From a bacterium (GTDB taxonomy: Bacteria > UBP6 > UBA1177), in NCBI GenBank assembly GCA_017963125.1, contig JAGCUA010000060.1:1-64000 (forward strand): a stretch of DNA of 64,000 nucleotides, read 5' to 3'. The translations under genes and the position numbers were made by a program. Of the stretch, positions 34,699-56,696 are shown in pieces (the stretch's first letter is position 1; every line of letters begins with the position of its first letter). Below the pieces are notes generated by a model, which saw nothing but the letters and a program-made list of their open reading frames with translations, made no database searches and had not been told where the DNA came from.

Positions 34699-36483
34699 TT
34701 ATTCTTCTTCCGGTTCCCTGAAAACTATCGGCTGCTGTATAGAATCGAAGTAGTCGTCTGTCGAAAGATGGCCGGTCTCGTTCATGATGTTGAGGATCCT
34801 GTAGAGGCTTTTGTACCAGTTTTCGGTCACGTTTTTCGAGAGGAACATGTAGTGGTATTTCGCTGGGCCCGGAATTACGGAGGCGAGGTAGGCAGATTCT
34901 ATCGGAGTGAGCTGATACGGCTGTTTTCCGAAATAGTAGTAAGACGCCTGCGAAATGCCGAAGATGCCAGGAGCCCATTCTATGATGTTGAAGTAGATCT
35001 CAAGAAGACGCTCTTTCGAAAGAGTCGCGTCGAGTTCTATTGCAAGAAGGACTTCTCGGAATTTGCGCAGAAGTGTTTTGTCGCGGTTTAAAAACAGGTT
35101 CTTTGCCAGCTGCTGCGTTATCGTTGAGCCGCCGCGCAGTTTGTGCTTTTTGATGTTGTCTTTTACAGCCGCGTCGAGTTCCTGGAAATCGACTCCTTTG
35201 TGGACGAAAAATCCTGCATCTTCAGAAACGACGACCGCCCAGATCAGGTGATCGGGAATAAGCGATATCGGCGTAAAATCGAAGTTGCGCTCCCCGACGA
35301 ATATTTTTCTTGTGCTGCCGTCCTCGTTTGTCCAGATGTATTCGAAAGGCAGTTTAAGGTAGTCCATGCGCTCCGAAAGCTGTTTCGGATCAATAAGATT
35401 GCCTTCGATCGAAAAAACGGGCGGTTCGTCGCCTTCCTGCGAATATTCTGCCAGAAGTTCGAGTGTCCCTCCGAAAAGGTAGCCTTCGAACGCTTCGTCG
35501 TGTATCAGAGTTTCAAGTTTGTTGAGATTTGCCGATTCAGTCTTTATCGAAAAATTCTTCGATGTTTTGCTGTAACTTCCAGAAAATACCGCATTGATGC
35601 CGCCGAGAGAAAGTTCTGCCTCTTTTGTTTCGGCAGATTTTTCGTCTTTGTCGAAAGCTACGTCACCTTTGAAGCGGAAAAGCGGCAGTGTGAAGGGCAG
35701 GGAATCGATCAGCGGATGGAAAAAAGTCAGGTCGTGGATCGTCATGTCGTTTTTCAGGAGAAATTTTCCTTTTTCTTCCGAAATTTCAGAAAAAGAGCTG
35801 ATTTTTCCGGCTGAAACGTCAAAAGAGGTTTTGTTTTTTATGATTTCGTGAAAATCATTCAAATCAATTCCGTCAAGCCGCACCGAAGCGCTTTTATCTT
35901 TAAGCGAAAAGCGGATCTCTGCGGTTCCGCCGTTTGCTTCGCCGAGCTCTTTGAAAAGCGCCTTGCCGCCTGAGCGCGACACGGTTAAGTCGGTTTTAAA
36001 ACTCTGTGTTACGCTGCCGAAAATAAAGTCGGCGTCGGTTGAAAAATCTATCGAAAAATCGGTATTCCGGCGGTTTTCATTTTTTTCTTTTTGGGGGTCC
36101 TTTTCTTTGCCTGATAAAAATGGCGCTTTTAATGCCTTGTCCGCATGAACAGTAGATTTCGCGCAGGTTATCTTCAGCTTTTTTTCATCTGAAAAAAGCA
36201 TTTTCCGGAGATTTCCCAGAGAACATTCTTCCAGTACAGCGAGTTCGTTCCCGCTATGCGTAAAAACCACTTTTTGAATGAATATCCGCGGCGGGAAAAG
36301 CGATATGTCAAGTCCCGAAATTTCGGTATCTACACCGTATTTCGCCTTTATCATGGCGGTTGCCTTCGAGGCGGCACCGTCGATTTTCCCGGCCGATACT
36401 TTTTCAATGGCAAAAATCACGATCACCGCCGAAACGAGCAGAAAAAGAATGGCGGCCAGAATTTTTTTCAGTTTTTTGCTCAT
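34699..36483 (-). CDS. AsmA-like/GT51 peptidoglycan glycosyltransferase fusion
   Basis: 594 residues. An N-terminal membrane helix (ILAAILFLLVSAVIVIFAI) leads into an AsmA-like periplasmic domain (GVDTEISGLDISLFPPRIFI, then beta-rich up to about residue 370). The C-terminal ~210 residues are a glycosyltransferase 51 domain: VVSEDAGFFVHKGVDF carries the catalytic Glu, then LRGGSTITQQLAKNLFLN, and KERLLEIYFNIIEWAPGIFG with the second acid. No transpeptidase domain follows, so it is monofunctional. It would polymerise lipid II in the periplasm. The gene overlaps the pepF stop by four bases. Confidence 0.88.
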   Translation of the reverse strand: MSKKLKKILAAILFLLVSAVIVIFAIEKVSAGKIDGAASKATAMIKAKYGVDTEISGLDISLFPPRIFIQKVVFTHSGNELAVLEECSLGNLRKMLFSDEKKLKITCAKSTVHADKALKAPFLSGKEKDPQKEKNENRRNTDFSIDFSTDADFIFGSVTQSFKTDLTVSRSGGKALFKELGEANGGTAEIRFSLKDKSASVRLDGIDLNDFHEIIKNKTSFDVSAGKISSFSEISEEKGKFLLKNDMTIHDLTFFHPLIDSLPFTLPLFRFKGDVAFDKDEKSAETKEAELSLGGINAVFSGSYSKTSKNFSIKTESANLNKLETLIHDEAFEGYLFGGTLELLAEYSQEGDEPPVFSIEGNLIDPKQLSERMDYLKLPFEYIWTNEDGSTRKIFVGERNFDFTPISLIPDHLIWAVVVSEDAGFFVHKGVDFQELDAAVKDNIKKHKLRGGSTITQQLAKNLFLNRDKTLLRKFREVLLAIELDATLSKERLLEIYFNIIEWAPGIFGISQASYYYFGKQPYQLTPIESAYLASVIPGPAKYHYMFLSKNVTENWYKSLYRILNIMNETGHLSTDDYFDSIQQPIVFREPEEE

Positions 36484-38374: not shown

Positions 38375-39445
38375 ATGATCATTCCTTTTTCTGAATTAAA
38401 ATTTTATATTTCGGCTTTTGAAGGAAGATATTTTTCTTCTTTTGTCAACGATCTGGCGCGCGACCGCAGTTTCGACCGCGGGCTTGCTGTCGCAGAAGCA
38501 GGAAACGTAACGGCTTACGTGCTGATTTCGGACGGGCGAGCGGTCCTTTCGAAAGTGCTTGCTTTTTCCGATGACGGGCAGCTTGCGACTGATGTCCCGA
38601 TAGGTGAGGTCACTGCAGGAAAATCTGTCGATCTCTATCTCTTCAGTTTGGAAGAGAGCACTGTTTTCAAGTGGCTGACCGATTTCTTCACTTATCCTAT
38701 AGCTCTTTATGCTCCGAGCCGTTTCGTTGACGTGATGAAACTCGTTTCATCGTTTTCGGAAAACAAGGATGACGCGCTTCTCTGCTTCAAACACGGAGCG
38801 GTGATGAATGTCGTCTCGTTTGAAAAAGGCGATTTCAGAGGATTTACCTATTTCGATCCGGCCGGAAAGCGCTATGTCTTTGAGAAAAACGCAGTGAAAT
38901 TCGGTTCCTATTTAAGTTCTCTCGATGTTTCCAAACCGGCAGTCATCTGCAAAAAAGTTTCGGAAAAAGTTTTGGCTTCCTCTTTTTTCAGCAGCGGTCT
39001 CGATTTTCTTGAAAACGATCCCGTTCAGACTGAAGCTGATCTTTATTTCGGCTGCTTCGGGCTTGTTTTCGATGCTTTTGCAAAGGTAATGCCGGCCGAA
39101 AAGGTGAAAGATCTTTCCGAAAAACTTTTTTCATACCTTCGCGGCAGGTATCCGCAGCTTTATTCCAAACTTGCGTTTTCGGCAGAGAGCGGGAGCGTAA
39201 ACTGGGAAAGTATGCTGGACGAAAGAAATTCTGTCGCCGTCGAATACCGTTTCGGCGAGTATCACAGGTATCTTGACGAAATCCTTTCGCTTCTGCTGAA
39301 AACTGCTGCTTCTCTTCTTCAGTCTCAGAAAAAACACGCTCTTGCTCTGGACATCGGTGAAAAAATCCGAAGATTCGAGGATGAAAACGGTGATTTTTCA
39401 GGAATGTTTGACAGATTGGATAAATTGTTGAAAATTCTCCGGTAA
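38375..39445 (+). CDS. uncharacterised cytosolic protein heading the FHA operon
   Basis: 356 residues; I recognise no family. The first ~190 residues look alpha/beta (YVLISDGRAVLSKVLAFSDD, KSVDLYLFSLEESTVFKWL) and could be a small sensory or scaffold fold. The last ~80 are long helices (LDEILSLLLKTAASLLQSQKK and FSGMFDRLDKLLKILR) likely to form a bundle or coiled coil. No signal peptide, membrane helix or catalytic motif is visible. It starts 22 bases after a good -10 element with a GGGGGC site and is followed 18 bases later by the twin-FHA gene, so a joint role is likely. Confidence 0.6.
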   Translation: MIIPFSELKFYISAFEGRYFSSFVNDLARDRSFDRGLAVAEAGNVTAYVLISDGRAVLSKVLAFSDDGQLATDVPIGEVTAGKSVDLYLFSLEESTVFKWLTDFFTYPIALYAPSRFVDVMKLVSSFSENKDDALLCFKHGAVMNVVSFEKGDFRGFTYFDPAGKRYVFEKNAVKFGSYLSSLDVSKPAVICKKVSEKVLASSFFSSGLDFLENDPVQTEADLYFGCFGLVFDAFAKVMPAEKVKDLSEKLFSYLRGRYPQLYSKLAFSAESGSVNWESMLDERNSVAVEYRFGEYHRYLDEILSLLLKTAASLLQSQKKHALALDIGEKIRRFEDENGDFSGMFDRLDKLLKILR

Positions 39446-39463
39446 CGTTTTTTAGAGGTTGGA

Positions 39464-40351
39464 ATGGCGGTGCTGAAACTCATAGTCGAAAACGACAGAA
39501 ACGAACTGAATATTTTTGAGTTCAACGGTAACCTTATCACTGTCGGGCGAAGTCCGAAAAACGATCTGGTCCTTGATGAAAGGAACGTGTCGAGATACCA
39601 CTTCCAGCTCGAAATCGTTGACGGAAGAATAATAATCTGCGACCGCGGGAGTTACAACCACACTTTTGTCGATGAGCGGGAGTTGGTCGGCGAAAAACTT
39701 GAAATCTTTGTCGGGAACGTCATCACTGTCGGTGACTACAACATTTATCTCGAACAGGATGACGAGACGCTTCTCAGGACTGTCCAGCCGGCAGTCGAAT
39801 CGGACGGCAGAAAAATTGCCGCAGACAATCTTCTTCTTGCGAAAAACGGATACCTCGGCGGAAAGATTTTCCCGCTTGCTGGCCGTGAAACCGTTATCGG
39901 AACCCATGCGAGCGCCGATGTCTATCTTTCGGCAGACGATATTCCTCCGATCCACTCGAAAATCGTTTTCGACGGCAATATCTATCTTCTGGTGAAAGGT
40001 GACTACAAAGCCGATTATCCGCTTATAGTCAACGATACCGAAGTTCAATCCGTCGATATGAGGAACGGAGACGAAATCAGAGTCGGCGATTTCATCTTTG
40101 AATTTGTCGAAAAAGGCGAGGAGTACGATCCGCAGCCTTACCAGCTCGAAGCCGAAAAATCGAGAAAAGAGAAGCTGAGAAAGGATATAAAAGGGAAGAA
40201 AATAAGAAGCATCAACGACGAAGAGCAGGATGAAAAGACTGAAATCACCCGCGTAAACAAATCCGGAACTGGCAAAAAGGTGGTTGTTATCCTGATAGCT
40301 CTTGCCGTTGCAGCAGCCGCAGCAGGCGCGGTATTCTTTTTTGTTCTTTAA
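39464..40351 (+). CDS. twin FHA-domain protein with C-terminal membrane anchor
   Basis: 295 residues. FHA domain 1 (about residues 5-95) has GRSPKNDLVLDERNVSRYHFQLEI and NHTFVDE, with the Arg-Ser and Arg-x-His residues used to bind phosphothreonine. Domain 2 (about 125-220) has IGTHASADVYLSADDIPPIHSKI and LIVNDTEVQ; it keeps IHS but lacks the Arg, so it may be degenerate. A charged linker (SRKEKLRKDIKGKKIRSIND) is followed by one C-terminal helix (VVVILIALAVAAAAAGAVFFF), a tail anchor. The FHA part faces the cytoplasm and would read Ser/Thr-kinase output; no kinase is in the window. Confidence 0.85.
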   Translation: MAVLKLIVENDRNELNIFEFNGNLITVGRSPKNDLVLDERNVSRYHFQLEIVDGRIIICDRGSYNHTFVDERELVGEKLEIFVGNVITVGDYNIYLEQDDETLLRTVQPAVESDGRKIAADNLLLAKNGYLGGKIFPLAGRETVIGTHASADVYLSADDIPPIHSKIVFDGNIYLLVKGDYKADYPLIVNDTEVQSVDMRNGDEIRVGDFIFEFVEKGEEYDPQPYQLEAEKSRKEKLRKDIKGKKIRSINDEEQDEKTEITRVNKSGTGKKVVVILIALAVAAAAAGAVFFFVL

Positions 40352-40375
40352 TGCCTTGAAACGCGGTTTTCACAA

Positions 40376-41089
40376 ATGAAATCATCGACTTTATTCATTT
40401 TTTTTATCATTTTGATTTTGACTTCCTGTTCACCGGACAATGCTTCTCTGCTGAAAAAAGCAGGTTATGAAGCCGACGGCACCGGACTTCTGGAAACGGT
40501 CCGGAACGACGATGAAAAAGCTTTCGATATTTTTCTGAAAATGCCGGAACTCCTCAATTTTGCCGACAGATCTGGAAGAAACGCTGTCATGCTTGCCTCG
40601 GCTAAAAAAGATCCTGCAATGCTGAAAAAGCTGGTCTCTGCCGGAGCAAATCTCAAAATCATGGACAATTCTGAAAAAACGCCGCTTCATTATGCCGCCG
40701 CAGGGAACTCCACTGGATGTGCCGAGTTCCTGCTTGAAAACGGAGCTGACGCAAATCTTACGGATAACTTCGGGCGCGATGCGGCAAACACTCTCACTTC
40801 TTTTGCCAAAGAAGAAAATGTCGAATTATTTAAAATGCTTATAGGAAAATCTACCGATCTTGAAAGGCGCGACAAAGACAAAAAGACACTTTTTATAATT
40901 GCAGCCGAAAAAGGTTACGCAAACTATATAAAACTCCTGATTTCTCTCGGTGTTTCGCCGCTTTCGAAGGATTTCAGCGGAAAAACGGCGCTCGATTATG
41001 CTGCCGAATCACTTGAAGCCGGGCGTCTGGACAGCGGAACTTTTGAGGAGATCGGAACATACACTATGAAAATAAAGGAAAAACTGTAA
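40376..41089 (+). CDS. ankyrin-repeat lipoprotein
   Basis: 237 residues. A signal peptide with lipobox (FIFFIILILTSC, Cys about residue 18) is followed by four or five ankyrin repeats: GRNAVMLASAKKDPAMLKKL, SEKTPLHYAAAGNSTGCAEFLLENGADANL, and KKTLFIIAAEKGYANYIKLLISLG. Ankyrin repeats mediate protein contacts; here they would face the periplasm or the outer-membrane surface. No strong Shine-Dalgarno is visible. It is the third gene of the operon, 24 bases after the FHA gene. Confidence 0.8.
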   Translation: MKSSTLFIFFIILILTSCSPDNASLLKKAGYEADGTGLLETVRNDDEKAFDIFLKMPELLNFADRSGRNAVMLASAKKDPAMLKKLVSAGANLKIMDNSEKTPLHYAAAGNSTGCAEFLLENGADANLTDNFGRDAANTLTSFAKEENVELFKMLIGKSTDLERRDKDKKTLFIIAAEKGYANYIKLLISLGVSPLSKDFSGKTALDYAAESLEAGRLDSGTFEEIGTYTMKIKEKL

Positions 41090-41104
41090 TACGAGGTGAA
41101 CTGA

Positions 41105-42739
41105 ATGGTAAAGCTTATCGCGGCATTTTCGCCTAAAGGCGGAGCCGGAACTTCGATGATAATCGCGAATCTTTCGATTTATCTTGCGCAGAAGGGAAAG
41201 AAGGTCCTTCTGATCGATGCTGCTCCGAACGGCGGAGCGCTCCACTCGTATCTCAACCTTCCCTCCATAGCTGTTTCCGATGAAGTTGCAGAGCATTTTT
41301 CCGTGCTGCCGCTGATTTCAACAGATTATCAGAACCTTAGTTTTTTCAGCAATTTACAGCATCAGGGCTCGAAGATCAGCGAACTGCTTATGCGCTGGCA
41401 GGGCGAAATGGAGCAGGTACAGTTTGATTTCGTCTTCATCGATATGGGGTCAGTCATAGATTCCGATCTGATGGATGTCATTGCGATCGCCGACTATTCG
41501 CTCATGTTCATTTCACCCGATTTCATTTCACTTGAGAAGAGCAACTATTTTTTCAGGGAGCTTTTCAACTACAGGCTGCGCAACGTCGAACTCAAATACG
41601 ATATCCAGCTTGAAACCCAGAACATAAGGCGTGCGAAAAAGGATTATCTTTTTACTTTCAGAAACCTCCTCGTCATGCTTTCGCAGGCGATCCCGAAAGT
41701 TGCAGCTCAGATCGCAAATGTTGTAAGTGACCTGAAGATCGGCATAGTCTACAACGGGCTGCGCAATTCGGCCGACAAGGAACTTACCCAGCTCTACCGG
41801 CTGCTGATAAGCAACAGTTTCGGCATAGGAACAGATCTGATTGCCGAAATAGCCTATTCCGATCTTGTTCCTGCTTCGATTGCCGCAATGAAACCGGTCG
41901 TTACGCTTGAAGCCAATGCAGAGTTCATAGAGGCTTTGGATAAATTCTCAAGCACTCTTTCGGGCAAACTTTTTCAGCAGAATTCTGTTCAGAAAAAGCT
42001 GAAGATCACTCCGTTCAACTACTATGAATGGTTCGGTCTTGACCGCGGCTGCTCGACTTTCGACATCAAAAACCAGTATGAACAGCTTAAAAAACTCTAT
42101 GTAGGCGAAAATCCTATACTGCGCGACATCTACGGCGACAGCGACCTTTTTATTCTGAACACTCTTCTCGATATGATGTTCAGCGAGCTCAACGATCCGG
42201 AGATAAGGCGCGAATACGATATGGATATAAAGAGCCACACAGTATCGCTTGAAACCTCGTTTCCCGATATTTTCATAATCGGAGAGGTCATCAAAAAGTA
42301 TAACCGCGTTAAGAAAAGGGAAGTCCTTGTCAAAAAGGACGTTTTCGGGCGCAGTGCGGAAAAGAGGGTCGTTGCATCTTCAGACGGAGATTTCGTGGAT
42401 GCAAATGAAATATTCAATAAATACAGGGAACTGCCGGTGACAGGCGATCTTCTGAGAAAGATCCGCGAAGAGGTCGGGATCTCATTCGAACTTATAATTT
42501 CCCGCACAAAAATATCGAACATGGTTCTCGATGCGATAGAAAAGGACAAATACGGTCTGCTTCCGGCCGATCTTTACGTCAAAAATTTTGTCCAGCAGTA
42601 CTGCAAGACGCTCAAAATGAACTCTGAAAATACCGAAATAATCGCTTCCGGCTACCTCAGATCCAAAAATACTCCCGCCGAGACGGCTGCTGCTGAACCT
42701 GCTGCCGAAGCGGAAAGTGCTCAGCAGGAGAAAGCATGA
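41105..42739 (+). CDS. MinD/ParA-like ATPase fused to J-like and HTH domains
   Basis: 544 residues. The N-terminal ~270 residues have the MinD/ParA/FlhG fold: AAFSPKGGAGTSMIIANLSIYLAQ, VLLIDAAPNGG, and FVFIDMGSVIDSD. The P-loop is KGGAGTS, so the signature Lys of the KGG is kept but the second Lys of GKT is a Thr, unusual for an active ATPase. Residues about 300-375 resemble a J-type helical hairpin (YYEWFGLDRGCSTFDIKNQYEQL, DPEIRREYD) without the HPD triad. Residues about 442-525 look like a RodZ-type helix-turn-helix (LLRKIREEVGISFELIISRTKIS, LPADLYVKNFVQQYCKTL). It probably positions a membrane-associated complex. The ATGA overlap couples it to the next gene. Confidence 0.75.
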   Translation: MVKLIAAFSPKGGAGTSMIIANLSIYLAQKGKKVLLIDAAPNGGALHSYLNLPSIAVSDEVAEHFSVLPLISTDYQNLSFFSNLQHQGSKISELLMRWQGEMEQVQFDFVFIDMGSVIDSDLMDVIAIADYSLMFISPDFISLEKSNYFFRELFNYRLRNVELKYDIQLETQNIRRAKKDYLFTFRNLLVMLSQAIPKVAAQIANVVSDLKIGIVYNGLRNSADKELTQLYRLLISNSFGIGTDLIAEIAYSDLVPASIAAMKPVVTLEANAEFIEALDKFSSTLSGKLFQQNSVQKKLKITPFNYYEWFGLDRGCSTFDIKNQYEQLKKLYVGENPILRDIYGDSDLFILNTLLDMMFSELNDPEIRREYDMDIKSHTVSLETSFPDIFIIGEVIKKYNRVKKREVLVKKDVFGRSAEKRVVASSDGDFVDANEIFNKYRELPVTGDLLRKIREEVGISFELIISRTKISNMVLDAIEKDKYGLLPADLYVKNFVQQYCKTLKMNSENTEIIASGYLRSKNTPAETAAAEPAAEAESAQQEKA

Positions 42740-43605
42740 ACTCAGATATTTTCAGGCCTTTCTTCGATTTCTTGGGATTTCCTTATCCCGGCGCATATAT
42801 GACGGTCCTTTTCTTTTCGTTTTTTATGACGTTGCCGATCATGATTTTTTCTTCGAAAGTGTTCAGTCTGAGCCTGAAGAAAATGATCGGGATGCCGCTT
42901 GTCATAGTTCCGTCGGCTCTTGTTGTTTCAAAGATCTTCCACATTCTTTTTGAAGGAAGGTTCATGCTTTATATCAACGGCTTGAAGGAAAACGGGATCT
43001 CCTATCTTTTCACTGTGATGCTCAATCCGTTCGTTGCAGGGCACGTTTTTTACGGCGGGCTTTTAGGCGGTTTCATTGCCGGAGCGCTTTTTACCTTGAT
43101 CGCTTATCCGCACGATGAAAAATCTTTTCTTAAAACTGCCGATGCAGCATCGATCTGCGTCATAAACGGGCTCTGGCTCACCCGTATCGGCTGCTTCCTC
43201 GAAGGCTGCTGCTTCGGAAGACCCTCTCAGCTTTTCGGTGTCCGTTTCCCGCAGGGTTCGAGGACGATGTTCCTGCTTCACCATATCGATCCGGAACACA
43301 CGAGTCTTTTTACCGACACGCAGCCGCTCATTCCGACCCAGCTTATCCACTCGTTCAGCAATTTCGTGATATTTGTCGTTCTTTTGAAGCTCGCTTTGTC
43401 GAAAAATCAGAAAAATCCCGGCTATATTTCGGCGGTTTTCCTCCTTTCATACTCAGTTACGCGCTTTCTTATCGAATTTCTGCGCTATGACATCCGCGGA
43501 AGTTTTCTCATGTTTTCCACAAGCCAGTGGATCTCGGTTTTTCTTTTTGTCGGCGGTTTTATGCTGTTGAAAAAGACTAAAGGTGCTGAGAATCTGAAAA
43601 AATAG
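42736..43605 (+). CDS. Lgt-like membrane protein (divergent diacylglyceryl transferase family)
   Basis: 289 residues with about seven hydrophobic helices. The family landmarks are recognisable: HVFYGGLLGGFIAG matches the FHGG region, LTRIGCFLEGCCFGRPSQLFGVRFP matches GRIGNFxNxExxG, and FLIEFLRYDIRG matches the distal Arg motif. In place of the His of FHGG there is Tyr, and Cys-rich GCFLEGCCFG replaces the Asn segment, as in a paralogous subfamily. It may transfer an acyl or lipid group to an unknown target, or be a second, specialised prolipoprotein enzyme. Last gene of the operon; its stop abuts the opposing gene. Confidence 0.8.
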   Translation: MNSDIFRPFFDFLGFPYPGAYMTVLFFSFFMTLPIMIFSSKVFSLSLKKMIGMPLVIVPSALVVSKIFHILFEGRFMLYINGLKENGISYLFTVMLNPFVAGHVFYGGLLGGFIAGALFTLIAYPHDEKSFLKTADAASICVINGLWLTRIGCFLEGCCFGRPSQLFGVRFPQGSRTMFLLHHIDPEHTSLFTDTQPLIPTQLIHSFSNFVIFVVLLKLALSKNQKNPGYISAVFLLSYSVTRFLIEFLRYDIRGSFLMFSTSQWISVFLFVGGFMLLKKTKGAENLKK

Positions 43606-43612
43606 CTATTTT
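43599..43612. repeat. 14-bp palindrome holding two opposing stop codons
   Basis: AAAATAGCTATTTT is a perfect palindrome. Bases 43603-43605 are TAG of the Lgt-like gene, and 43606-43608 give TAG of the converging lipoprotein on the other strand. It leaves no intergenic bases. Confidence 0.85.
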
Positions 43613-45003
43613 ACGCAGATAACTTTGTAGGCAACGGTTTTTCCGGTACTTAACTTAACTGATCCGGTGGACATATCTGCGATCCATGCATATGACGGAT
43701 ATCCGATGTAGGTCGTCGAGCTCCATAGATAAGGTGAAGTCAGACCAGGGAACAGGGATGCCGGATTGGTGCGGGTGTAGTCGATTATCGAGGCAAGTTC
43801 GTTGATGTTGGGAAGTCTCCAACCGGTTTCGCCGGCATATTCAAGCGTTTCGCAGTGTTCTAATGCCGCTTTCCAAATCAATACATTTTCCCCGATAGTT
43901 TGTGTCCATTTCAGGTTGTGGGTGTCGTCGTAAACTATCACTTCGTTATTTTCGGTGGCAGTTTTGTAGACCGGTTTTTCAAGTTCATCCCCGCGGACGC
44001 AGCGGACATAGAATGTAGAAGATGCCTTTGTGTCGTCCTGTTCTATCGTTTCTCCCGTCTGGAAATCCACCGCCCAGCTTTTTCCGCTCGAAGCGGCAGA
44101 TGAAGCGGAGGTCCAGAATGTTGTCGAGCTTGAAGAAGGAAGCGGAAAGTAGTCCTCATCGGTTATGCCTATGGCCGGAAGAGATCCGAAGTTTTTGATC
44201 GTAGCATATTCTTCAGGAGTCGGCAGTCTCCAGTCGTCGTAACCTGCATAGTTCAGTGTGCTGCAGTAATTTAAAGCTTCCTGTTTCGTGCATACGATCA
44301 CGTTCGTTCCGTCACCGTGATTCGGACAGCCTGTTTCGGGAAGTTTTCTCTGCCACATCAGATGAGTTATATTGTCTGTTACGGTATCGCTCGTGGTGGA
44401 GAATGTCTTTGACACACAGTATTCGCTGTTTGCATACTGCGCGTCCTGACCGAAGAAATTATAGTCGCTATCTGTTCCTGAAGGAGAAGCCGGGCAGGTT
44501 ATTTCCTTTTTGTTGTTGAAACATTTGTCCTGACCGGTGCAGATCGATGCAGGTTCCTCTTTTTCGGGGATCTGGTAGTCTTCATCTTCAGGTTCTCCTG
44601 AATCGGCGTCGTCATCGTCGTCGTTGACAGGTTCGTCGTCATCCTGATCCGTGTCCTGATCTTCATCATCCTGAGGCTGAGGATCGTTGTCTTCGGTCGG
44701 GTCGTGATCCGTTTCATGCGATTCGTCAGGGATTTCGCTGTCTTTGTCTCCGGTATCAGTGTCGGTGTCGTCGGTATCGCTGTCTGTATCAGTATCGGTA
44801 TCAGTGTCTGTGTCTGTGTCTGTGTCGTCGTCGGTTACAGTATCCGGTTCGTCTGTGGTTGGATCTCCGGTGTCGTCATCACTCACACCGTCGATATCCC
44901 AGTCGTCGTATTCGTCGTATTTGTCGTTTTTGTCTTCGCAGCTTATGCAGAAAACAAGTGCCGCAAAGATGAGCGAGAAAAACAAAACTTTTTTTAATTT
45001 CAT
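43606..45003 (-). CDS. Asp-rich lipoprotein with two DUF1566 domains
   Basis: About 465 residues from ATG 45001-45003 (GGGAGAAAGCT upstream). The lipobox signal MKLKKVLFFSLIFAALVFCISC is followed by a strongly acidic, Thr/Asp-rich stalk of about 130 residues with DTDTDTD runs. Two DUF1566 domains follow: LMWQRKLPETGC, YAGYDDWRLPTPEEYATI and VRCVRG for the first; LKWTQTIGENVLIWKAALEHC, GWRLPNINELASIIDY and AYKVICVK for the second. It lies ten bases after the giant lipoprotein gene and shares its stalk style, so the two are probably co-expressed and exported together. Ligand unknown. Confidence 0.87.
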   Translation of the reverse strand: MKLKKVLFFSLIFAALVFCISCEDKNDKYDEYDDWDIDGVSDDDTGDPTTDEPDTVTDDDTDTDTDTDTDTDTDSDTDDTDTDTGDKDSEIPDESHETDHDPTEDNDPQPQDDEDQDTDQDDDEPVNDDDDDADSGEPEDEDYQIPEKEEPASICTGQDKCFNNKKEITCPASPSGTDSDYNFFGQDAQYANSEYCVSKTFSTTSDTVTDNITHLMWQRKLPETGCPNHGDGTNVIVCTKQEALNYCSTLNYAGYDDWRLPTPEEYATIKNFGSLPAIGITDEDYFPLPSSSSTTFWTSASSAASSGKSWAVDFQTGETIEQDDTKASSTFYVRCVRGDELEKPVYKTATENNEVIVYDDTHNLKWTQTIGENVLIWKAALEHCETLEYAGETGWRLPNINELASIIDYTRTNPASLFPGLTSPYLWSSTTYIGYPSYAWIADMSTGSVKLSTGKTVAYKVICVK

Positions 45004-45013
45004 AGCTTTCTCC

Positions 45014-48000
45014 CTATTCAATACAGATAACAATATTACTGCTGTCTTTTGAGTTGCGGATGACGCTTCCGGTCAAGAAATCTACGGCATAAGCCTCGGA
45101 AGGAGCCGTGTTGACAGTCGTCGAAGTCCATGCCGTGCCCGCGAATCCCCGGATCAGCGAGCCGCCGTTTGTCCTGTCGATGAGCCACATCAGCTCGTTG
45201 ACAGTCGGAAGCCTCATCTTGTCAAGACCGTTCAAATTGTCAAAACTTGAGCATGTTTCAATCGCGTTTTTCCAGGTGTCGCCGACAGTGAGATCATCAA
45301 AACGCCAGAAGTTGAAAATTATTGAACCGGCTGATTCCGTATTCTCGGGAACCATGATTACCGTGTTCGGTGAGTCAAATATGAACATCGAGTCAGCTGT
45401 CTTTTCCCGACACTGTAATGCCGAGCAGTTTGATTCTTCGCTTACCGAACGGACGCATTTGATTTTCGCGTCGTCTATAGACGGAGTGGTTAATGTTCCG
45501 TCAGCAGTCGAGAATACGAATCCTTCGTCAGTCCAGTATGATCCGCTCGTGTTCGTGAAACCCGAATACATGTGCGTAGCTGAAGCGTAATCTGTAATCG
45601 TTGACAACTCGGCCGCAGTAGGTTGTCTCCAGTCGTCGTAGCCGCCCAAAGTAAGGAATTTACAGTAAAAATTCGCTTCATAGGCTGTGCACGAGGATGT
45701 CGCTGCACATTCCTGATATCCATATCCTTCTAATCCAGTTTCTACTCCATAAATTGAGGGCGTCGCCGTTTCCCACATGAGTCCTGTAGCATTGTCTTTG
45801 ATTATTTCGCCGTTTGCAATAGCCTCATAGTCATGCGGCGTGTAGTTAAAGTTCGGCTCCTGACCGTAGAAATCTCCGCTTGTCGGACAAGTAATTTCTG
45901 CTGAGTTGCTGTAACATTTTGTCTGGCCTGTTTCAAAGAAGGGGCTCTTGTACGCATCGTTGTATTCGCATGTCGTGAGGATAGGAACACAGTCTGACGT
46001 ACAGCTGTTTATGATTTTTGTTTCGTCGGTAAACCCAAACTGCAGCAGCTCAGAGCATTGGATTTCAGCAATCATTGTTTCTTCTGTGCTGCTGGGATCG
46101 CAGAATTCGTCCTTACCCAGTTCGCCGTCGCCGCATGAAGATGTGCCGTTGCATGTAAGGTTGCAGTGACCGTGGAGTCCGTTGTTTTCACCTTCGTCGC
46201 ACGCTTCGTTATCCTGTTTGTCTCCGTCGCCGCATTCACCTGTTATCCTCTGGCAGTCAGCTGAGCAGTAGTCGTTATCAGCTGTGTTGCCGTCGTCACA
46301 AGCTTCTCCGTATTCCAATTCTCCGTTGCCGCAGACGGCCGTGCTGCCTGTGCATATCTGGTTGCAGTGACCGGATTGTCCGTTGAAGTCATATCCTTCA
46401 TCGCAATCTTCGTTTACTCCTACTGCAACTACGCAGCAGTTTTCAGTTGTATTTTCATCACAGAGAGGCAGTGATCCGCAATCTTCCTTCTGTATTTTCC
46501 CGTCTCCGCAGAAACCTGAGCAATCATTGTAACAGCGTCTAGGATTGCCGTTTTCATCGCCTTTATCGCACGCTTCATTCATTCCAGTAACTATTTCACA
46601 GCAGTTTTCAGTAATTTCTTCATCGCATTGAAGCAGGTATGTACACTCTTCACGCTGAGTTCTGCCGTCTCCGCAGTAAGGAGTAGGACCGTTGCATGTC
46701 GAATTGCAGTGCCTCGGAGTTCCGTTGAGGTCTTCGTCATCGCAGGTTTCTCCGTGAACATAGTCAACAACACCGTCACCGCATTTCCATGTTATGGTTT
46801 CAGTGCAGGTGTCGTCGCACTTGCCGAAGTTGCCGTTTTCATCGCCGTCATCGCAGTTTTCGTTTGTTCCTTCAACGACTTCGCAGCAGTCTTCTGTGAT
46901 GGTATCGCTACAAAGTTTGTTGTTTTCCGGATCAAGAGCGACATAAGCGTCACATTCTTCAGAGGTTCCTTTCTGGATCTTCTTGTCGCCGCAGTATGCC
47001 GTCTTTCCTGGTTCTGCAGTGCATGAAGTTGTGCAGACTGTGCAGCTTGTTTCGCCGTAAGGGCAGTTCGGATTAGTGTTTTGTGAACCATTGTCACACT
47101 CTTCGTCTCCGCCTTCAAGAACTCTGCATTTCGGATCTCCGCCGCAGTCTTCGTTCTGGCGTATTCCGTCACCGCAGTAGCCTGTTTTCAGGGTCCTGCA
47201 GTCGCTGCTGCAGTGGTTGTAAGTTCCGTTGACTCCGTCGCCGTCGTCGCAGTTTTCGCCGTAATTAGACTGTTTTATGCCGTCGCCGCACTTCATGACG
47301 AACGTACAGTCGCTGCTGCAGTGTCCGTAAGTTCCGTTGACTCCGTTGCCTTCGTCACAGGTTTCGTTTGCTCCCGTAACGACTTCGCAGCAGTTTTCTG
47401 TGATGGTGTCGCTGCAAAGTTTGTTGTTGGGATCAAGAGCGACATAAGCGTCACATTCTGCAACTGATCCTTTCTGTATCTTCTTATCGCCGCAGCCCGG
47501 CATGTATCCGTCACAGTTATCGTTGCAGTGTCCGTAAGTTCCGTTTCCGTTGATTCCGTCGCCGTCATCGCATATTTCTGGTCCTTTTATCACATTGTCG
47601 CCGCAGTATCCGTAACTCTCCGAACAGTTATCCGAGCAGTAAGCACCCGTTCCCTCACCTTCGCCGACACTCGGATCAGCCTTATCGCATGCTTCGTTCG
47701 GCTGGATCTTTCCGTCGCCGCAGTAGCCTGTTACGCTCTGGCAGTCGTCCGCGCAGTACGGGTCAAGAGTTTTTTCGCATACTTCTATTCCGTTCTGCCA
47801 TTCTCCGTCGCCGCAGTATCCGAAACTCTGCGTGCAGTCGAAAGAGCAGTAAGCGCCCGTTCCCTCACCTTCGCCGACACTCGGATCAGCCTTGTCGCAA
47901 GTTTCGTTCGGCTGGATCTTTCCGTCGCCGCATTCGCCGAGAAGCGTCTGACAGTTGGATGAACAGTAATCGCCGATTCCCTGACCTTCACCGACACTCG

Positions 48001-50554
48001 GATCAGCCTTGTCGCAAGTTTCGTTCGGCTGGACCGTTCCGTCTCCGCAGAAGCCTGTTGTGCTCTTGCAGTCGTCCGCGCAGTATGGGTCAAGAGTTTT
48101 TTCGCATGCTTCGTGTTCCTGGTCTAATTTGCCGTCTCCGCAGCGTGAGGTCACACCTTCGCGTATCTGACAGCTTGAGTTGCATACCGTGCAGCTCGTT
48201 TCGCCGTATTCACACTGCGTTTTTCCGTTTTTGTCTCTGCCTTCATCGCATTCTTCAGCTGCATCGGACATTTCGGTGCAGTTGGAAATTCCTTCACATG
48301 AGCTGTTCTGGATCTTATTGTCGCCGCAGTACCCGCTGTCTTGAGCAGAGCAGTCGGCATTGCAGTTCGGCGGATAGTTAAGTTTGTATTTGCCGTTTTT
48401 ATCTTTGTCGTCATCGCAGTTTTCGGGGCCTTTCTTTATGCCGTCACCGCAGTATCCGAAACTCTCAGTGCAGTCGAAAGAGCAGTAAGCGCCGGTTCCT
48501 TCACCTTCGCCGACACCCGGATCTGCCTTGTCGCACGCTTCGTTCGGCTGGATCTTTCCGTCGCCGCATTCACCTGTTATGCTCTGGCAGTCGTCAGCGC
48601 AGTAGGGGTCAAGAGCCTTGTCGCATTCTTCGTTGTCTGGATCCACCCTGCTGTCACCGCAGAAAGAAATGTTTCCGTCGATTTCCGTGCAGTTTGCCGA
48701 GCAGACTTTGCAGCTTGTCTCGTCGTAAGCGCAGTCGGTTATCGTTCCATTGACTCCTTTGCCTTCGTCACAGTCTTCCGGGCCGTTTACCACATTGTCG
48801 CCGCAGTGTTCGCCTATTCCGGAACAGTCTGATTTACAGTGTCCGTATGTTCCGTTGAGATCTTCGTCATCGCACTCTTCGCCGTTTTCTCTGTCTACCG
48901 TTTCGTCGCCGCAGAAATGAGGCGTTCCGTCGATTTCTTTACATTCCGTCGAGCAGACTTTGCAGCTTTTCAGTCCGTAAGCGCAGTCGGTATTCGGATT
49001 CGGACCACCGTCACATTCTTCGTCGCCGTTCGGTATACTGTCGCCGCAGTAGCCCGCTATGCTCTTGCAGTCCTCTGAGCAGTAGGGGTCAAGAGCCTTG
49101 TCGCACGCTTCGTTATTTTGTTTGAAGCCGTCGCCGCAGGAGCCTGTTACTCTCTGGCAGTCAGCCGAGCAGTAGTCTCCGTTTTCGGTGTTTCCGTCAT
49201 CGCAGACCTCGTAGTCGGATTGGCGCTCGCCGTCACCGCAGTATCTGAGCTTTCCAGGGGCCTTCGTGCAGTTTTCCGTGCAGACTTCGCAGCCGATGAC
49301 TGTTCCGTAAGCACAGCCAGTATTCGGATTTGTCCCTTCGTCACATTCTTCGGGGCCGTTTACTATATTGTCGCCGCATTCACCTACGATCTGTTTGCAG
49401 TCGTCTGAGCAGTAGGGGTCAAGAGCCTTGTCGCATATTTCAAACCATTGAAGGATACTGTCTCCGCACGAGCCGTTGGAAGTCTGGCAGTCAGCCGAGC
49501 AGTAGTCTCCGTTTTCGTTGTTTCCGTCATCACATTTTTCGTAAGCAGGCTGCACTATACCGTCACCGCAGTAGATCGTGCCGGTGCAGGTCGTGTTGCA
49601 ATGGCCGTAAGTTCCGTTTCCGTTTTCTCCTGTACCGTCATCGCATTCCTCGTTTTCCTGCTGTATGCCGTCGCCGCATTTGCCGGTGATTTCCGTGCAG
49701 TCGAACGAGCAGTAGTGAGGTCCGATGCCCTGACCGCCGCCTTCTCCCGGGTTGGCGTTGTCGCATGCTTCATTACTCTGTTTTATGCCGTCTCCGCAGC
49801 TTCCGACTATTTCTGAGCAGTCGCTTGCGCAGTAAGCACCGATTCCTTCACGGCTTCCGATGTTCTTGTCGGCATTGTCGCACGCTTCGATGGTGACCTG
49901 TATTTTGCCGTCTCCGCACCATCCTGTGATTTCAGAGCAGTCCGCCGAGCAGTAGTCGCCGTTCACTCTGTTTCCGTCGTCGCAGGTTTCTACGCTGTCG
50001 GTGATACCGTCACCGCATCTTGCGAATCTGCAGTTGGTACGGCAGGTCGAGCCGTAAGTTCCCGGTTCGTCGCTGTTGGCAAAGCCGTCATCACACTCTT
50101 CGCCCATTTCGGTCACGCCGTTTCCGCATTCCGGAGTGTACGGTTCCGTATCGCTGTCTTCGTCGGGTTGAGTGTCTGTATCTTCGGGTTCGTCATTGTC
50201 GTCCGTATCGGTGTCTGAGTCCGAATCAGAATCTGAATCGTCATTGTCGTCGGAATCGTTTTCATGTCCCGAGTCTGCATCGTCGTCGGGAACGGTTTCG
50301 CCGTCTTTGTCCGGATCAGTGTCGGAATCAGTGTCATAGTCGTCTTTTTCCGCAGGCTCGCTGCACACTTTGTCTATGCAGAAAAGACCTGTTTTGCAGT
50401 CGATGTTCTTTTCGCACGGATCGCCGATATTTCCTTTCTCTTCGTCAGTTGTAGGATCGTCATCCGGATAATCGTAGATGCTGCCTTTTTTGCCGTTGCA
50501 TGCCGCGATTGCGAAAATGAAAGCCGCATAAAGAAAAATTCTCAGAAACTTCAT
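45014..50554 (-). CDS. giant lipoprotein with about 33 Myxococcus-type Cys-rich repeats
   Basis: 1846 residues. The signal MKFLRIFLYAAFIFAIAAC ends in a lipobox, followed by an acidic stalk (about 75-145, DSDSDSDSDTDTDDND). From about residue 145 to 1490 there are roughly 33 modules of the pattern CGDGxxQxxEACDxG...YCSxxC, the TIGR02232-type cysteine-rich repeat known from myxobacteria. The C-terminal ~330 residues hold two DUF1566-like domains (ATGLMWETATPSIYG, GYDDWRQPTAAELSTI; DKMRLPTVNELMWLID). Each module carries several Cys, so heavy disulfide bonding outside the cytoplasm is implied. It heads an operon with the 43606 lipoprotein. Likely an extended surface fibre or adhesin. Confidence 0.9.
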   Translation of the reverse strand: MKFLRIFLYAAFIFAIAACNGKKGSIYDYPDDDPTTDEEKGNIGDPCEKNIDCKTGLFCIDKVCSEPAEKDDYDTDSDTDPDKDGETVPDDDADSGHENDSDDNDDSDSDSDSDTDTDDNDEPEDTDTQPDEDSDTEPYTPECGNGVTEMGEECDDGFANSDEPGTYGSTCRTNCRFARCGDGITDSVETCDDGNRVNGDYCSADCSEITGWCGDGKIQVTIEACDNADKNIGSREGIGAYCASDCSEIVGSCGDGIKQSNEACDNANPGEGGGQGIGPHYCSFDCTEITGKCGDGIQQENEECDDGTGENGNGTYGHCNTTCTGTIYCGDGIVQPAYEKCDDGNNENGDYCSADCQTSNGSCGDSILQWFEICDKALDPYCSDDCKQIVGECGDNIVNGPEECDEGTNPNTGCAYGTVIGCEVCTENCTKAPGKLRYCGDGERQSDYEVCDDGNTENGDYCSADCQRVTGSCGDGFKQNNEACDKALDPYCSEDCKSIAGYCGDSIPNGDEECDGGPNPNTDCAYGLKSCKVCSTECKEIDGTPHFCGDETVDRENGEECDDEDLNGTYGHCKSDCSGIGEHCGDNVVNGPEDCDEGKGVNGTITDCAYDETSCKVCSANCTEIDGNISFCGDSRVDPDNEECDKALDPYCADDCQSITGECGDGKIQPNEACDKADPGVGEGEGTGAYCSFDCTESFGYCGDGIKKGPENCDDDKDKNGKYKLNYPPNCNADCSAQDSGYCGDNKIQNSSCEGISNCTEMSDAAEECDEGRDKNGKTQCEYGETSCTVCNSSCQIREGVTSRCGDGKLDQEHEACEKTLDPYCADDCKSTTGFCGDGTVQPNETCDKADPSVGEGQGIGDYCSSNCQTLLGECGDGKIQPNETCDKADPSVGEGEGTGAYCSFDCTQSFGYCGDGEWQNGIEVCEKTLDPYCADDCQSVTGYCGDGKIQPNEACDKADPSVGEGEGTGAYCSDNCSESYGYCGDNVIKGPEICDDGDGINGNGTYGHCNDNCDGYMPGCGDKKIQKGSVAECDAYVALDPNNKLCSDTITENCCEVVTGANETCDEGNGVNGTYGHCSSDCTFVMKCGDGIKQSNYGENCDDGDGVNGTYNHCSSDCRTLKTGYCGDGIRQNEDCGGDPKCRVLEGGDEECDNGSQNTNPNCPYGETSCTVCTTSCTAEPGKTAYCGDKKIQKGTSEECDAYVALDPENNKLCSDTITEDCCEVVEGTNENCDDGDENGNFGKCDDTCTETITWKCGDGVVDYVHGETCDDEDLNGTPRHCNSTCNGPTPYCGDGRTQREECTYLLQCDEEITENCCEIVTGMNEACDKGDENGNPRRCYNDCSGFCGDGKIQKEDCGSLPLCDENTTENCCVVAVGVNEDCDEGYDFNGQSGHCNQICTGSTAVCGNGELEYGEACDDGNTADNDYCSADCQRITGECGDGDKQDNEACDEGENNGLHGHCNLTCNGTSSCGDGELGKDEFCDPSSTEETMIAEIQCSELLQFGFTDETKIINSCTSDCVPILTTCEYNDAYKSPFFETGQTKCYSNSAEITCPTSGDFYGQEPNFNYTPHDYEAIANGEIIKDNATGLMWETATPSIYGVETGLEGYGYQECAATSSCTAYEANFYCKFLTLGGYDDWRQPTAAELSTITDYASATHMYSGFTNTSGSYWTDEGFVFSTADGTLTTPSIDDAKIKCVRSVSEESNCSALQCREKTADSMFIFDSPNTVIMVPENTESAGSIIFNFWRFDDLTVGDTWKNAIETCSSFDNLNGLDKMRLPTVNELMWLIDRTNGGSLIRGFAGTAWTSTTVNTAPSEAYAVDFLTGSVIRNSKDSSNIVICIE
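47640..48620. repeat. near-identical DNA repeats inside the giant lipoprotein
   Basis: Segments of about 90-110 bases near 47640, 47835, 47955 and 48470 share long identical runs (for example cttcgccgacactcggatca and cgttcggctggatctttccg). They encode the ADPSVGEGEGTGAYC...CGDGKIQPNE modules. Confidence 0.85.
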
Positions 50555-50831: not shown

Positions 50832-53444
50832 ATGTTTGGGCGTTTGTTGTTTATATCAATTTTATTTTTCTTTTCCTTCGGGATTTCCGGCGAACCGGTT
50901 TTGTTGTCGGGTTTCCCGCATTTTGCGTCGCGTTCGTGGTCTTCATCCGCTCTGCCGCACAACAACGTTACCGCTTTTTACCGCGATGAAAACGGGCTGC
51001 TCTGGGTCGGAACGGTCGAAGGGCTGGCGAGGATCGATTCAAAAACGTCAGAGTTCTTTTCGACTAACACAAATTCTGCAATTTTAAGCAATAAAATCAA
51101 TGACTTATCGGGATGTTCCGGTAAAGTTTTCGTGGCTTCGGCTGCCGGGATTTCAGAGATTTCTGACTCATGCGGAAAGGTGGAAAAACTTTTCGCGTGG
51201 CGCGGCGTTTTCGATATCGAAGCGGTTGGCGGCTGCACTCTTTTTGCAACGGACGGGAAAGAGATTCTTGAGATAAAAGATAGTGAAATCAATAAGTTGA
51301 GCAAAAAAAGCGGTTTCCCTGAAAGTGCTGTTTCGTCACTTTTTTCAGACGGTCCGGTGCTTTATGCCGGTTTTGAAAAAGGTGAGGTGAGGAGTTTCGG
51401 CGAAAACGGTTTTTCTGAGGATCTCTGCTCAGGCAATTCTGCTTCCGTAACAGCAGGAAAAGTTGCCGAAGGGAGGGTCTTCGCCGGGACTGCAAAAGGC
51501 GAACTCTTTGAAATCAAAGGAGAAAAATGTGTCAAAATCGCCGAGTCAGGTGTGCGCGAGGCTGTTTCATCGATTGATTTTCAGGAAGGGACACTCGTTT
51601 TTACATCAGGCGGATCGCTCTTTTTTGTCGAACAAGGCATTTCAAGGCCGTGCGGAGAGCAGTGTTCGGCAGCTGGAGCAGTCTCGAAAGTCGTGCTTGA
51701 CGGCAGTTTTGTCTGGCTTTCGGGCAGCCGCGGTCTTGTGTTGTTTTATCCAGGAAAATTCATAACTTTGGGGCGCGAATCGGGGCTTCTGAACGAAAAA
51801 GTCTACGCTCTTCTCGAAGACGGCTCGGGGAGAGTCTGGGCCGGAACGCGGGGCGGCGGCCTCTTTGTCTATGAAAACGGAAAATTCAGGTATGTGAAAG
51901 ACAGAAAAGGGGATATCGGGCGTTTCGTCGGCGGACTTTTCGAGAATGAAGACGGAAAAATACTTGTCGGAACCACGGATGGAGTAGTCAGCTTTCTTCC
52001 TGAAAAACCTAATGTTTTCAACAAGATGCCTGAAGATAAAGGAACGGCGGCTGGTGCTGTCAGCGCACTTTTCCGCGACGGTAAATCCCGTCTGTGGGCC
52101 GGCGGAAGCGGCGGATCGGTCTATCTTTACACTAAAAAAGGGTGGCATCTTATCAGAAAATTCGGAGACGATTCCGATTTCGTCTCATCTATTGCCGAAG
52201 ATCGTGCCGGAAATCTCTGGTTCGCAGCTTCGAAAGGTCTCTGGCGGCTTGACGAAAATGATGAATTTCACGAAATAAATCATGAACTTGCGGCCGATGT
52301 TCCCGTTTCGCTTTTTGTCGGCGGCGACGGAACTCTTTTTGTCGGAACGATGAACGGCGGGCTTCTGCTGATCGACAGAAATCTGAAAATATCGCGGATC
52401 GATTCGCGCAAGGGGCTGTGCAGTGATACGATTTTCGGAATGATTTCCGATGACAACGGAAACATCTGGTTTTCGAGCACGAAAGGGATCTTCTCTCTGC
52501 CTGAAAATCTTCTTCTTGAGGCTTCACGCAGCGAAAACGGCTCTGTCGAATGCGCAGTCTTCGGGGCTGCCGACGGGATCCGCCGCCCTGAATCGACCGG
52601 CGGTGTCCAGCCTTCCGTGCTGAAGAGGAAAAACGGAGATCTGTGGTTCCCGACGCTCGAAGGAGTCGCCGTTCTCGAAAAAAACGGGCGCAAAGCTGTC
52701 ATGTTTGATTCGGTAGCACCGGAAAAAAGTCCTGCGCCTGCTGCTGAAAGTGAAGAAAAATCAAATAGTTATGCGGTTTGGATGATCCTTGCGGCTCTCG
52801 GAATGATTGCGGTTATATTTTGGCGGCTAAGACCTCCCCACCAGCCACACCTCAGACAGCCTGACCCCTCAGCCTCCGGCAGCTCCCCTGCTTCAGGGGC
52901 GCCTGAAATCGGTGCAGATTCCAAGTCTGAGTCTCAGCCTTTGGCAGCTCCCCTACCTCAGGGGAGCCTTGAAAGAGGTTCGGATTCTGAATCTGAGTCT
53001 GACTCAGAATCTTCTGATGTTTTTGATCCGGAAAAGGATGAAGTCGGGGAGAAGCCTAAATATGAAGGCTATCAGCTTGACGACGAGATCGCAGCGGCAT
53101 ACGCGAAAGAGGCAAGAGATTTGATGGAAAAGGAAAAACTTTACAGAAATCCGTACCTTACGATGCCTGAAGTGGCAAAGAAACTGAAACTTTCGGCTAA
53201 TACGCTGTCTCAGGTCCTTAACGGTTACTGCGGCCAGACTTTCTACAATTTCGTAAACACCTACAGAGTCGAAGAGGTCATTTCGATGATGCAGGATCCG
53301 AAAAACGACGATAAAAGCATACTGAAACTTTCGATCGAGGCGGGCTTCAATACGAAATCCACCTTCAACAACATTTTCAAGAAAACAACCGGTATGACTC
53401 CGGCCGAGTTCAGGAAAAAAATCGGAAATCAAGAAAAAAAGTAA
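50832..53444 (+). CDS. membrane-spanning beta-propeller sensor with AraC-type DNA-binding domain
   Basis: 870 residues. A signal/anchor segment (LLFISILFFFSFGISG) is followed by about 600 residues of propeller repeats of the Reg_prop type (NNVTAFYRDENGLLWVGTVEGLARID, KVYALLEDGSGRVWAGTRGGGLFVYENG, GMISDDNGNIWFSSTKGIF). One transmembrane helix comes next (AVWMILAALGMIAVIFW, near residue 650), then a Ser/Pro/Asp-rich linker. The C-terminal ~105 residues are an AraC-like HTH (NPYLTMPEVAKKLKLSANTLSQVLN, STFNNIFKKTTGMTPAEFRKKI). It resembles hybrid two-component sensors without kinase and receiver, so it should sense outside and bind DNA directly. The next operon is its likely target. Confidence 0.85.
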   Translation: MFGRLLFISILFFFSFGISGEPVLLSGFPHFASRSWSSSALPHNNVTAFYRDENGLLWVGTVEGLARIDSKTSEFFSTNTNSAILSNKINDLSGCSGKVFVASAAGISEISDSCGKVEKLFAWRGVFDIEAVGGCTLFATDGKEILEIKDSEINKLSKKSGFPESAVSSLFSDGPVLYAGFEKGEVRSFGENGFSEDLCSGNSASVTAGKVAEGRVFAGTAKGELFEIKGEKCVKIAESGVREAVSSIDFQEGTLVFTSGGSLFFVEQGISRPCGEQCSAAGAVSKVVLDGSFVWLSGSRGLVLFYPGKFITLGRESGLLNEKVYALLEDGSGRVWAGTRGGGLFVYENGKFRYVKDRKGDIGRFVGGLFENEDGKILVGTTDGVVSFLPEKPNVFNKMPEDKGTAAGAVSALFRDGKSRLWAGGSGGSVYLYTKKGWHLIRKFGDDSDFVSSIAEDRAGNLWFAASKGLWRLDENDEFHEINHELAADVPVSLFVGGDGTLFVGTMNGGLLLIDRNLKISRIDSRKGLCSDTIFGMISDDNGNIWFSSTKGIFSLPENLLLEASRSENGSVECAVFGAADGIRRPESTGGVQPSVLKRKNGDLWFPTLEGVAVLEKNGRKAVMFDSVAPEKSPAPAAESEEKSNSYAVWMILAALGMIAVIFWRLRPPHQPHLRQPDPSASGSSPASGAPEIGADSKSESQPLAAPLPQGSLERGSDSESESDSESSDVFDPEKDEVGEKPKYEGYQLDDEIAAAYAKEARDLMEKEKLYRNPYLTMPEVAKKLKLSANTLSQVLNGYCGQTFYNFVNTYRVEEVISMMQDPKNDDKSILKLSIEAGFNTKSTFNNIFKKTTGMTPAEFRKKIGNQEKK
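52831..52973. repeat. two REP-like palindromes inside a coding region
   Basis: ggcagctcccctgcttcagg (52879-52898) folds with CCCCT/AGGGG. The second copy at 52943-52968 has a perfect stem GCTCCCCT (52947-52954)/AGGGGAGC (52960-52967) with loop ACCTC. Flanking text (cacctcagacagcctgaccc) looks like the usual body of this dispersed repeat. It encodes the juxtamembrane linker of the regulator in frame. Confidence 0.7.
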
Positions 53445-53608: not shown

Positions 53609-53642
53609 AAAAAACTCGAGTTGATTTTTGACGGAGGCTGAA

Positions 53643-54374
53643 GTGAGAAAGACAAAAGGTTTTTCATTGATCGAACTGATGATCGCGATGGGGATTCTGA
53701 CGATAATCGCGACTGTCGCCGTTCCCAAAGTCCAGATGTGGAATGCGAGGAACAGGGGACTTCAGGCGGTGCTTGAGATTATTTCCGATTTCTCGAAGGC
53801 GAGATCGGTCGCCGGATACACTGTCGTAGGTGACGATACGAACGGAGTCATCAAAATTCCGGTGAAAATCAACGATGAGACCGGCGAACCGGAAGGCGGT
53901 GAGATGAATGTATATCTCGGGATCAGGCTCCAGACGGCCATCGTCTTCGGATTGAACGAGTATTCAGTTTACCAGAAAAAGGATATGGCGAACACGGCCA
54001 GCAGCTGGCAGAATTCGGAACTGCTCAAGAAAAATCTGCTTCCGAACACGATTTCGATAGAAAGGATGAACGGCGACTCCGAATCCGAAGGTTTTACGAG
54101 AAGGCTCGTTTTTAATTCCAACGGTCTCGTAAAAACGAAAGAGGATGCTTTCCCGAGTCTTACTGCGGTGAAGTGCGGCAGCTTGGACAATCCTCTCAAG
54201 CAGCTTGTCATGAGTCTTGTCCTCCGCTCCAGGATCGACAGCTCCGGCGGCAGTTCCATCTGGTACAGGATCGATATCGATAAATCGGGTGAATATTTTA
54301 TCTGCTCGGCTTTCGCCGATTCTTACAGTGATTCGATTTTTACGAATTCTGCGGCTAATCCGCTGAACATATAG
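53643..54374 (+). CDS. type IV pilin-like protein (GspH/FimT-like)
   Basis: 243 residues from GTG 53643, with CGGAGGCTGAA upstream; an in-frame TTG at 53628 has no site. The prepilin signal is MRKTKGFSLIELMIAMGIL: cleavage after Gly6, Phe at +1 and Glu at +5, then the hydrophobic helix (TIIATVAVPKVQMW). The rest is a large pseudopilin-like head (GLQAVLEIISDFSKARSVAGY resembles GspH/FimT). First gene of the minor-pilin set, so it probably helps start pilus assembly. A promoter with direct repeats lies just upstream. Confidence 0.88.
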   Translation: MRKTKGFSLIELMIAMGILTIIATVAVPKVQMWNARNRGLQAVLEIISDFSKARSVAGYTVVGDDTNGVIKIPVKINDETGEPEGGEMNVYLGIRLQTAIVFGLNEYSVYQKKDMANTASSWQNSELLKKNLLPNTISIERMNGDSESEGFTRRLVFNSNGLVKTKEDAFPSLTAVKCGSLDNPLKQLVMSLVLRSRIDSSGGSSIWYRIDIDKSGEYFICSAFADSYSDSIFTNSAANPLNI

Positions 54375-54383
54375 GAGGAAAAG

Positions 54384-54953: not shown

Positions 54954-54964
54954 CGGAGTCCGGA

Positions 54965-56053: not shown

Positions 56054-56061
56054 GGTGGCAA

Positions 56062-56685: not shown

Positions 56686-56696
56686 AGAGGTGTGAA

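Follow-up and report, generated by a model that had tools for sequence, protein, structure and literature searches.

A conserved FHA/MinD-like cassette of the candidate phylum UBP6 is spliced, in one genus, to an Lgt-like gene from a type IV pilin operon

A gene set that looks like a single machine can have been spliced together recently, and cross-genus comparison separates its core from its additions. Here we describe a five-gene operon (A to E) from a bacterium of the candidate phylum UBP6, which is real and conserved in its genus. Comparison of gene neighbourhoods indicates that its core consists of gene A, an FHA gene (B) and a MinD-J/HTH gene (D) with a kinase partner, and that the ankyrin gene C and the Lgt-like gene E are recent lineage-specific additions. 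We propose, tentatively and with a confidence just short of even, that the operon is the local version of an order-wide UBP6 cassette that would act as a kinase/FHA-controlled scaffold at the membrane cortex, with D standing in for RodZ. Literature searches found no description of this gene set.

Throughout, the window is the whole stretch of DNA that was analysed (64,000 nucleotides), g1 is its genus, g2-g4 are other genera of its family f1, and f2 and f3 are further families of the order. The host belongs to UBP6, its nearest named records being MAGs from the rumen and other gut sources, UBA1177 among them, and not to Myxococcota, the group in which the initial annotation had suggested a neighbourhood search. 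The five genes all lie on the forward strand: A (38375-39445, 356 aa), B (39464-40351, 295 aa), C (40376-41089, 237 aa), D (41105-42739, 544 aa) and E (42736-43605, 289 aa). As first described, the spacing is tight, with intergenic gaps of 18 (A-B), 24 (B-C) and 15 bases (C-D) and a 4-base overlap (ATGA) between D and E; the B-C gap of 24 bases uses the C start at 40376, and a later internal start in C gives 66. The single promoter that had been assigned to all five genes was not recovered: a consensus scan found no sigma-70-like site on the plus strand of the upstream gap, and sigma-70-like matches across the region were at chance expectation. A gene on the reverse strand at 34699-36483 encodes a C-terminal transglycosylase domain behind a long N-terminal part with a weak DUF748 match only.

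Within g1, all five genes were found in order at eight of the ten readable loci, and the 4-base D-E overlap was present at seven of the ten. The other two loci are without A (missing at L040:8200-8400 and L041:2690-2900), and at L041 an apparent C-terminal remnant of A stands just before the FHA gene. In G010, a 96%-complete member of g1, searches of the assembly matched none of A, B and D and gave no close orthologue of C or E. A whole-genome search found the gene D family across genus, family and order.

Outside g1, A, FHA and MinD-J/HTH stay together at every fully readable locus of the order. The loci read in g2-g4, f2 and f3 show the order A, FHA, an MtnA-like gene, a lipoprotein gene, MinD-J/HTH, kinase, in some cases an HSP33-like gene, and NAD kinase, where MinD and J/HTH are either fused or encoded by two genes (adjacent in G016-G019). 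The lipoprotein of these cassettes is a TPR/transglutaminase protein, about 1000-1200 aa long except in g2, where it is short, and the kinase is a Ser/Thr kinase with a TM segment and PEGA. A Tad-pilus cluster 3' of MinD in relatives, guessed from gene sizes, was rejected when Pfam identified the genes as kinase, HSP33-like and NAD kinase genes. Among 290 genomes, A was found in 20 and B in 21, nearly the same genomes and all within the order; at the thresholds used, none of the 290 carried the A/FHA set beyond the order.

In g1, the kinase has been relocated away from the cassette: its orthologue (G000:C60:86234-87628) is retained at ~63% identity and the kinase-HSP33-NADK block is intact at a separate locus (G000:C60; L118, L129). 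The TPR/transglutaminase gene is absent from 11 of 11 g1 genomes tested, and gene C occupies the position where relatives have the MtnA-like and TPR/transglutaminase lipoprotein genes. C encodes a putative lipoprotein with ankyrin repeats (Pfam Ank) and a lipobox-like LTSC/S signal; its orthologues (36-45%) lie in g2-g4 at other loci, with varied neighbours. Since both C and E have their orthologues at other loci outside g1, the five-gene set joins two or three older pieces. Scattering of the genes among relatives, which the initial annotation had named as the outcome that would speak against its proposal, was found for C and E and was not found for A, B and D.

Ancestrally, E is part of the type IV pilin operon that adjoins it in the window. 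In g3 and g4 (64-67%) and in f2 (43%), a Reg_prop/AraC sensor gene and minor pilin genes follow immediately after the E orthologue, and in f3 the orthologue and the sensor form one ORF of about 1230-1250 aa. The f3 fusion loci are just 5' of minor pilin genes (L124:4967-8725, L125:2471-6166 and L128:8546-12271), the Lgt-Reg_prop-AraC domains having been determined for L124 and assigned to L125 and L128 by alignment. In the window, a sensor with a Reg_prop propeller and an AraC HTH (50832-53444, forward strand) and a run of type IV pilus minor-pilin genes with a large PilY1-like gene (53628-62879, forward strand; N_methyl matches and a weak PilY1 match) are still found 3' of E, so that the operon joins the signalling cassette to the head of the pilin operon. 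Two inverted lipoprotein genes (43606-50554, reverse strand) separate E from its ancestral partner downstream; they encode an Lcl_C protein (475 aa) and a Cys-rich repeat protein (1846 aa), and are highly variable across the window genus.

Gene A gave no Pfam match, no fold match in the PDB and nothing convincing in a PDB sequence-profile search. Its AF2 model (pLDDT 87) contains two predicted alpha/beta modules and a helical C-terminus. By hhalign, A matched DUF4388 at residues 19-66 (E 4e-4, probability 34%) and 121-221 (E 7.5e-3, probability 5%), with controls at 0.2 or worse; the Pfam cut-off for DUF4388/PATAN was not reached by the A family, whose best E-value was 0.029, in one of 13 members. 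We take this weak likeness as a lead only. It nevertheless bears on another reading, in which the cassette would govern type IV pili: A, as a PATAN-like protein, and D, as a MinD/CpaE-like one, would position or regulate the pilus, and the splice with the E-sensor-minor-pilin operon would reflect that function. The ancestral context of E, upstream of the sensor, the minor pilins and the PilY1-like gene, argues for it, as does the KGGxGxS motif of D, which resembles that of CpaE/TadZ proteins. Moreover, in cyanobacteria the PATAN/DUF4388 domain is linked with the control of type IV pili, on which PATAN proteins act (PMC7690835). However, outside g1 the surroundings of the A-FHA-MinD-kinase cassette showed no recognisable pilus genes, and A is a weak candidate for a PATAN protein; we judge pilus control to be unlikely. 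A passive neighbourhood, in which housekeeping and signalling genes are co-transcribed and share no complex, would fit the housekeeping-like MtnA, HSP33-like and NAD kinase genes of the ancestral cluster as well as the rearrangement of the clusters in g1, but the order A, FHA, MinD, J/HTH is kept across three families and two of these genes are order-specific, which makes this explanation distinctly improbable.

The proposed scaffold draws on the features of B and D. B carries two Pfam FHA matches, a linker and one strong hydrophobic segment at its C-terminus (TM 273-291). The residues of FHA1 that correspond to the GR, SxxH and N ligand positions (R29, S43, R44, H46 and N65) are invariant across the order; in FHA2 the ligand Arg and Ser are lost. 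B had been described as a tail-anchored twin-FHA protein: the anchor and the two matches stand, but the second domain is degenerate. E257 and T259 are invariant in the otherwise variable linker adjoining the TM segment and, given the transmembrane kinase of the ancestral operon, T259 would be the best candidate phosphosite of B. NCBIfam cut-offs were far from reached by B (49 against 650 bits for GltG, 34 against 120 bits for TagH). All together, the conservation of the FHA1 ligand residues across the order, the TM segment of B and the transmembrane Ser/Thr kinase in the locus of relatives make plausible the phospho-controlled, membrane-attached complex that had been put forward.

D combines a CbiA/ParA match, a weak DnaJ match and HTH_25 (Pfam). 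Its description as a MinD-like/J/HTH fusion holds for these domains, but residues typical of the first two are lost. The P-loop reads KGGAGTS or KGG[TS]GTS in 19 of 19 members, so that the signature Lys is kept and the Walker Lys lost; the deviant Walker A motif KGGxGK[ST] is not matched and all NCBIfam MinD cut-offs are missed. The J-like part matches J domains in Foldseek (prob 1.00, with weak E-values) and in profile searches, and the HPD motif is absent from it in every aligned row of the D family. No TM segment is predicted in D, and with the Walker Lys also lost, ATPase cycling is uncertain. In sequence, the HTH (PF13413, 2.2e-14) matches the RodZ structures 3fym, 4gqm and 2wus, with E-values from 1.5e-9 to 1.8e-8; in fold, it matches 3fym and 2wus. 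Y491 and F495 of D, aromatic in all aligned rows, align with Y66/F70 of Chlamydia RodZ and F60/Y64 of E. coli RodZ, residues on which MreB binding depends (PMC4047632).

D was the only full-length HTH_25 match found in genomes of the order, MreB was present in every genome searched, and a RodZ-like protein with a TM segment occurs in the sister family f4; a role of D as RodZ stand-in is plausible on these grounds. Outside UBP6, MinD-like genes adjoin J/HTH genes at L054 and L058 (G067 and G071); both genomes encode a TM-bearing RodZ as well, and no FHA or kinase genes were found among the neighbours scanned with Pfam. As these pairs coexist with a true RodZ, the conservation of HTH_25 could reflect descent alone. 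In its most specific form, the proposal would make D a soluble, NTPase-fused replacement of RodZ in which the MinD-like domain, and not a TM segment, couples MreB to the membrane, the kinase and the tail-anchored FHA protein switching the link; we consider this form unlikely. The HTH of D might also bind DNA, the cassette being then a phospho-regulated transcription or partition regulator and not a cytoskeletal scaffold. ParA/MinD relatives often act on DNA, and the HTH has HTH_25/HTH_19 and SinR-type matches; however, its best sequence and structure matches are to the RodZ family and the MreB-contact aromatics are kept, and we judge DNA binding very unlikely.

In the kinase/FHA-controlled scaffold that we favour, the kinase would phosphorylate Thr259 of B and/or partners, and FHA1, reading the phosphothreonine, would bring the complex together at the inner membrane. 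As a nucleotide-binding MinD variant, D would cycle on the membrane and link the complex to MreB via its RodZ-like HTH, replacing the missing transmembrane RodZ. A may serve as an adaptor, and the lipoprotein as the envelope-side element, ankyrin in g1 and TPR in relatives. E is probably outside the working core. The unlinking of the kinase in g1, the loss of A from two g1 loci and the lack of matches to A, B and D in G010 count against this reading. If D docks MreB, an uncultured phylum would have a RodZ-type adaptor coupled to an NTPase of the MinD family and governed by kinase and FHA, and two normally separate positioning systems would be brought together.

E is a variant Lgt-family membrane protein (PF01790, 2.1e-34, 119 bits against a cut-off of 24.9) that misses the TIGR00544 equivalog cut-off (98.7 against 118.9 bits). 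Its motifs are FYGGLL and TRIGCFLEGCCFG; the signature Arg is kept, HGG is replaced by YGG and GRxGN by TRIGC, and GCCFG occupies the region of Glu151. Aligned with an E. coli Lgt sequence, E shows changes of the H103Y, G142T, N146C and E151C type, and H103Y, G142A and E151A/Q render E. coli Lgt inactive (PMC4728403). These motifs agree with the divergent Lgt of the initial annotation; several residues required in E. coli Lgt are missing from E, which is unlikely to be an ordinary Lgt. The 2.76 Mb genome G000 has five LGT-family genes (C24, C34, C65, C31 and C26; L001-L005), L005 being the only one with all the canonical catalytic residues compared (His, Asn and Glu kept). As had been proposed, the five genes might make up a single system, with E lipidating the ankyrin lipoprotein, or helping to place it, under the control of FHA and MinD. 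The tight arrangement and the D-E overlap at most g1 loci speak for this, but it is hardly likely, as C and E are outside the ancestral cassette and, in the g2-g4 loci read, are linked neither to the core nor to each other, E has lost required residues, and the genome encodes a canonical Lgt at another locus.

Among known systems, RodZ (YfgA/YmfM; Chlamydia CT009) is matched by D in an HTH_25 with both MreB-contact aromatics, D being the sole such protein found in these MreB-bearing genomes; unlike in RodZ, the HTH is C-terminal, has a MinD-like NTPase and a J-like domain as fusion partners or neighbours, and is accompanied by no TM or periplasmic domain. With the MinD/ParA deviant-Walker NTPases, notably those of the CpaE/TadZ type, D shares the CbiA/ParA match and the signature Lys of KGGxG, but its Walker Lys is replaced (KGGAGTS), it is fused to J/HTH, and no Tad genes were recognised nearby. 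In the ancestral operon a canonical FHA stands with a transmembrane kinase, which recalls the FHA and Ser/Thr kinase pairs (T6SS PpkA/Fha, the gliding FHA protein GltG, OdhI/GarA); in contrast to these, B is a twin FHA with a degenerate FHA2 and a C-terminal TM segment, and no secretion or gliding machinery was recognised in the UBP6 locus. A resembles PATAN/DUF4388 through weak profile matches at two stretches, each inside a predicted alpha/beta module, whereas it falls below the Pfam threshold, has no receiver domain and is confined to one order. Finally, E belongs to the LGT Pfam family and retains the signature Arg of the prolipoprotein diacylglyceryl transferase, but it differs from Lgt in its YGG, TRxGC and GCCFG motifs, and its orthologues in relatives adjoin or are fused to a sensor near pilin genes.
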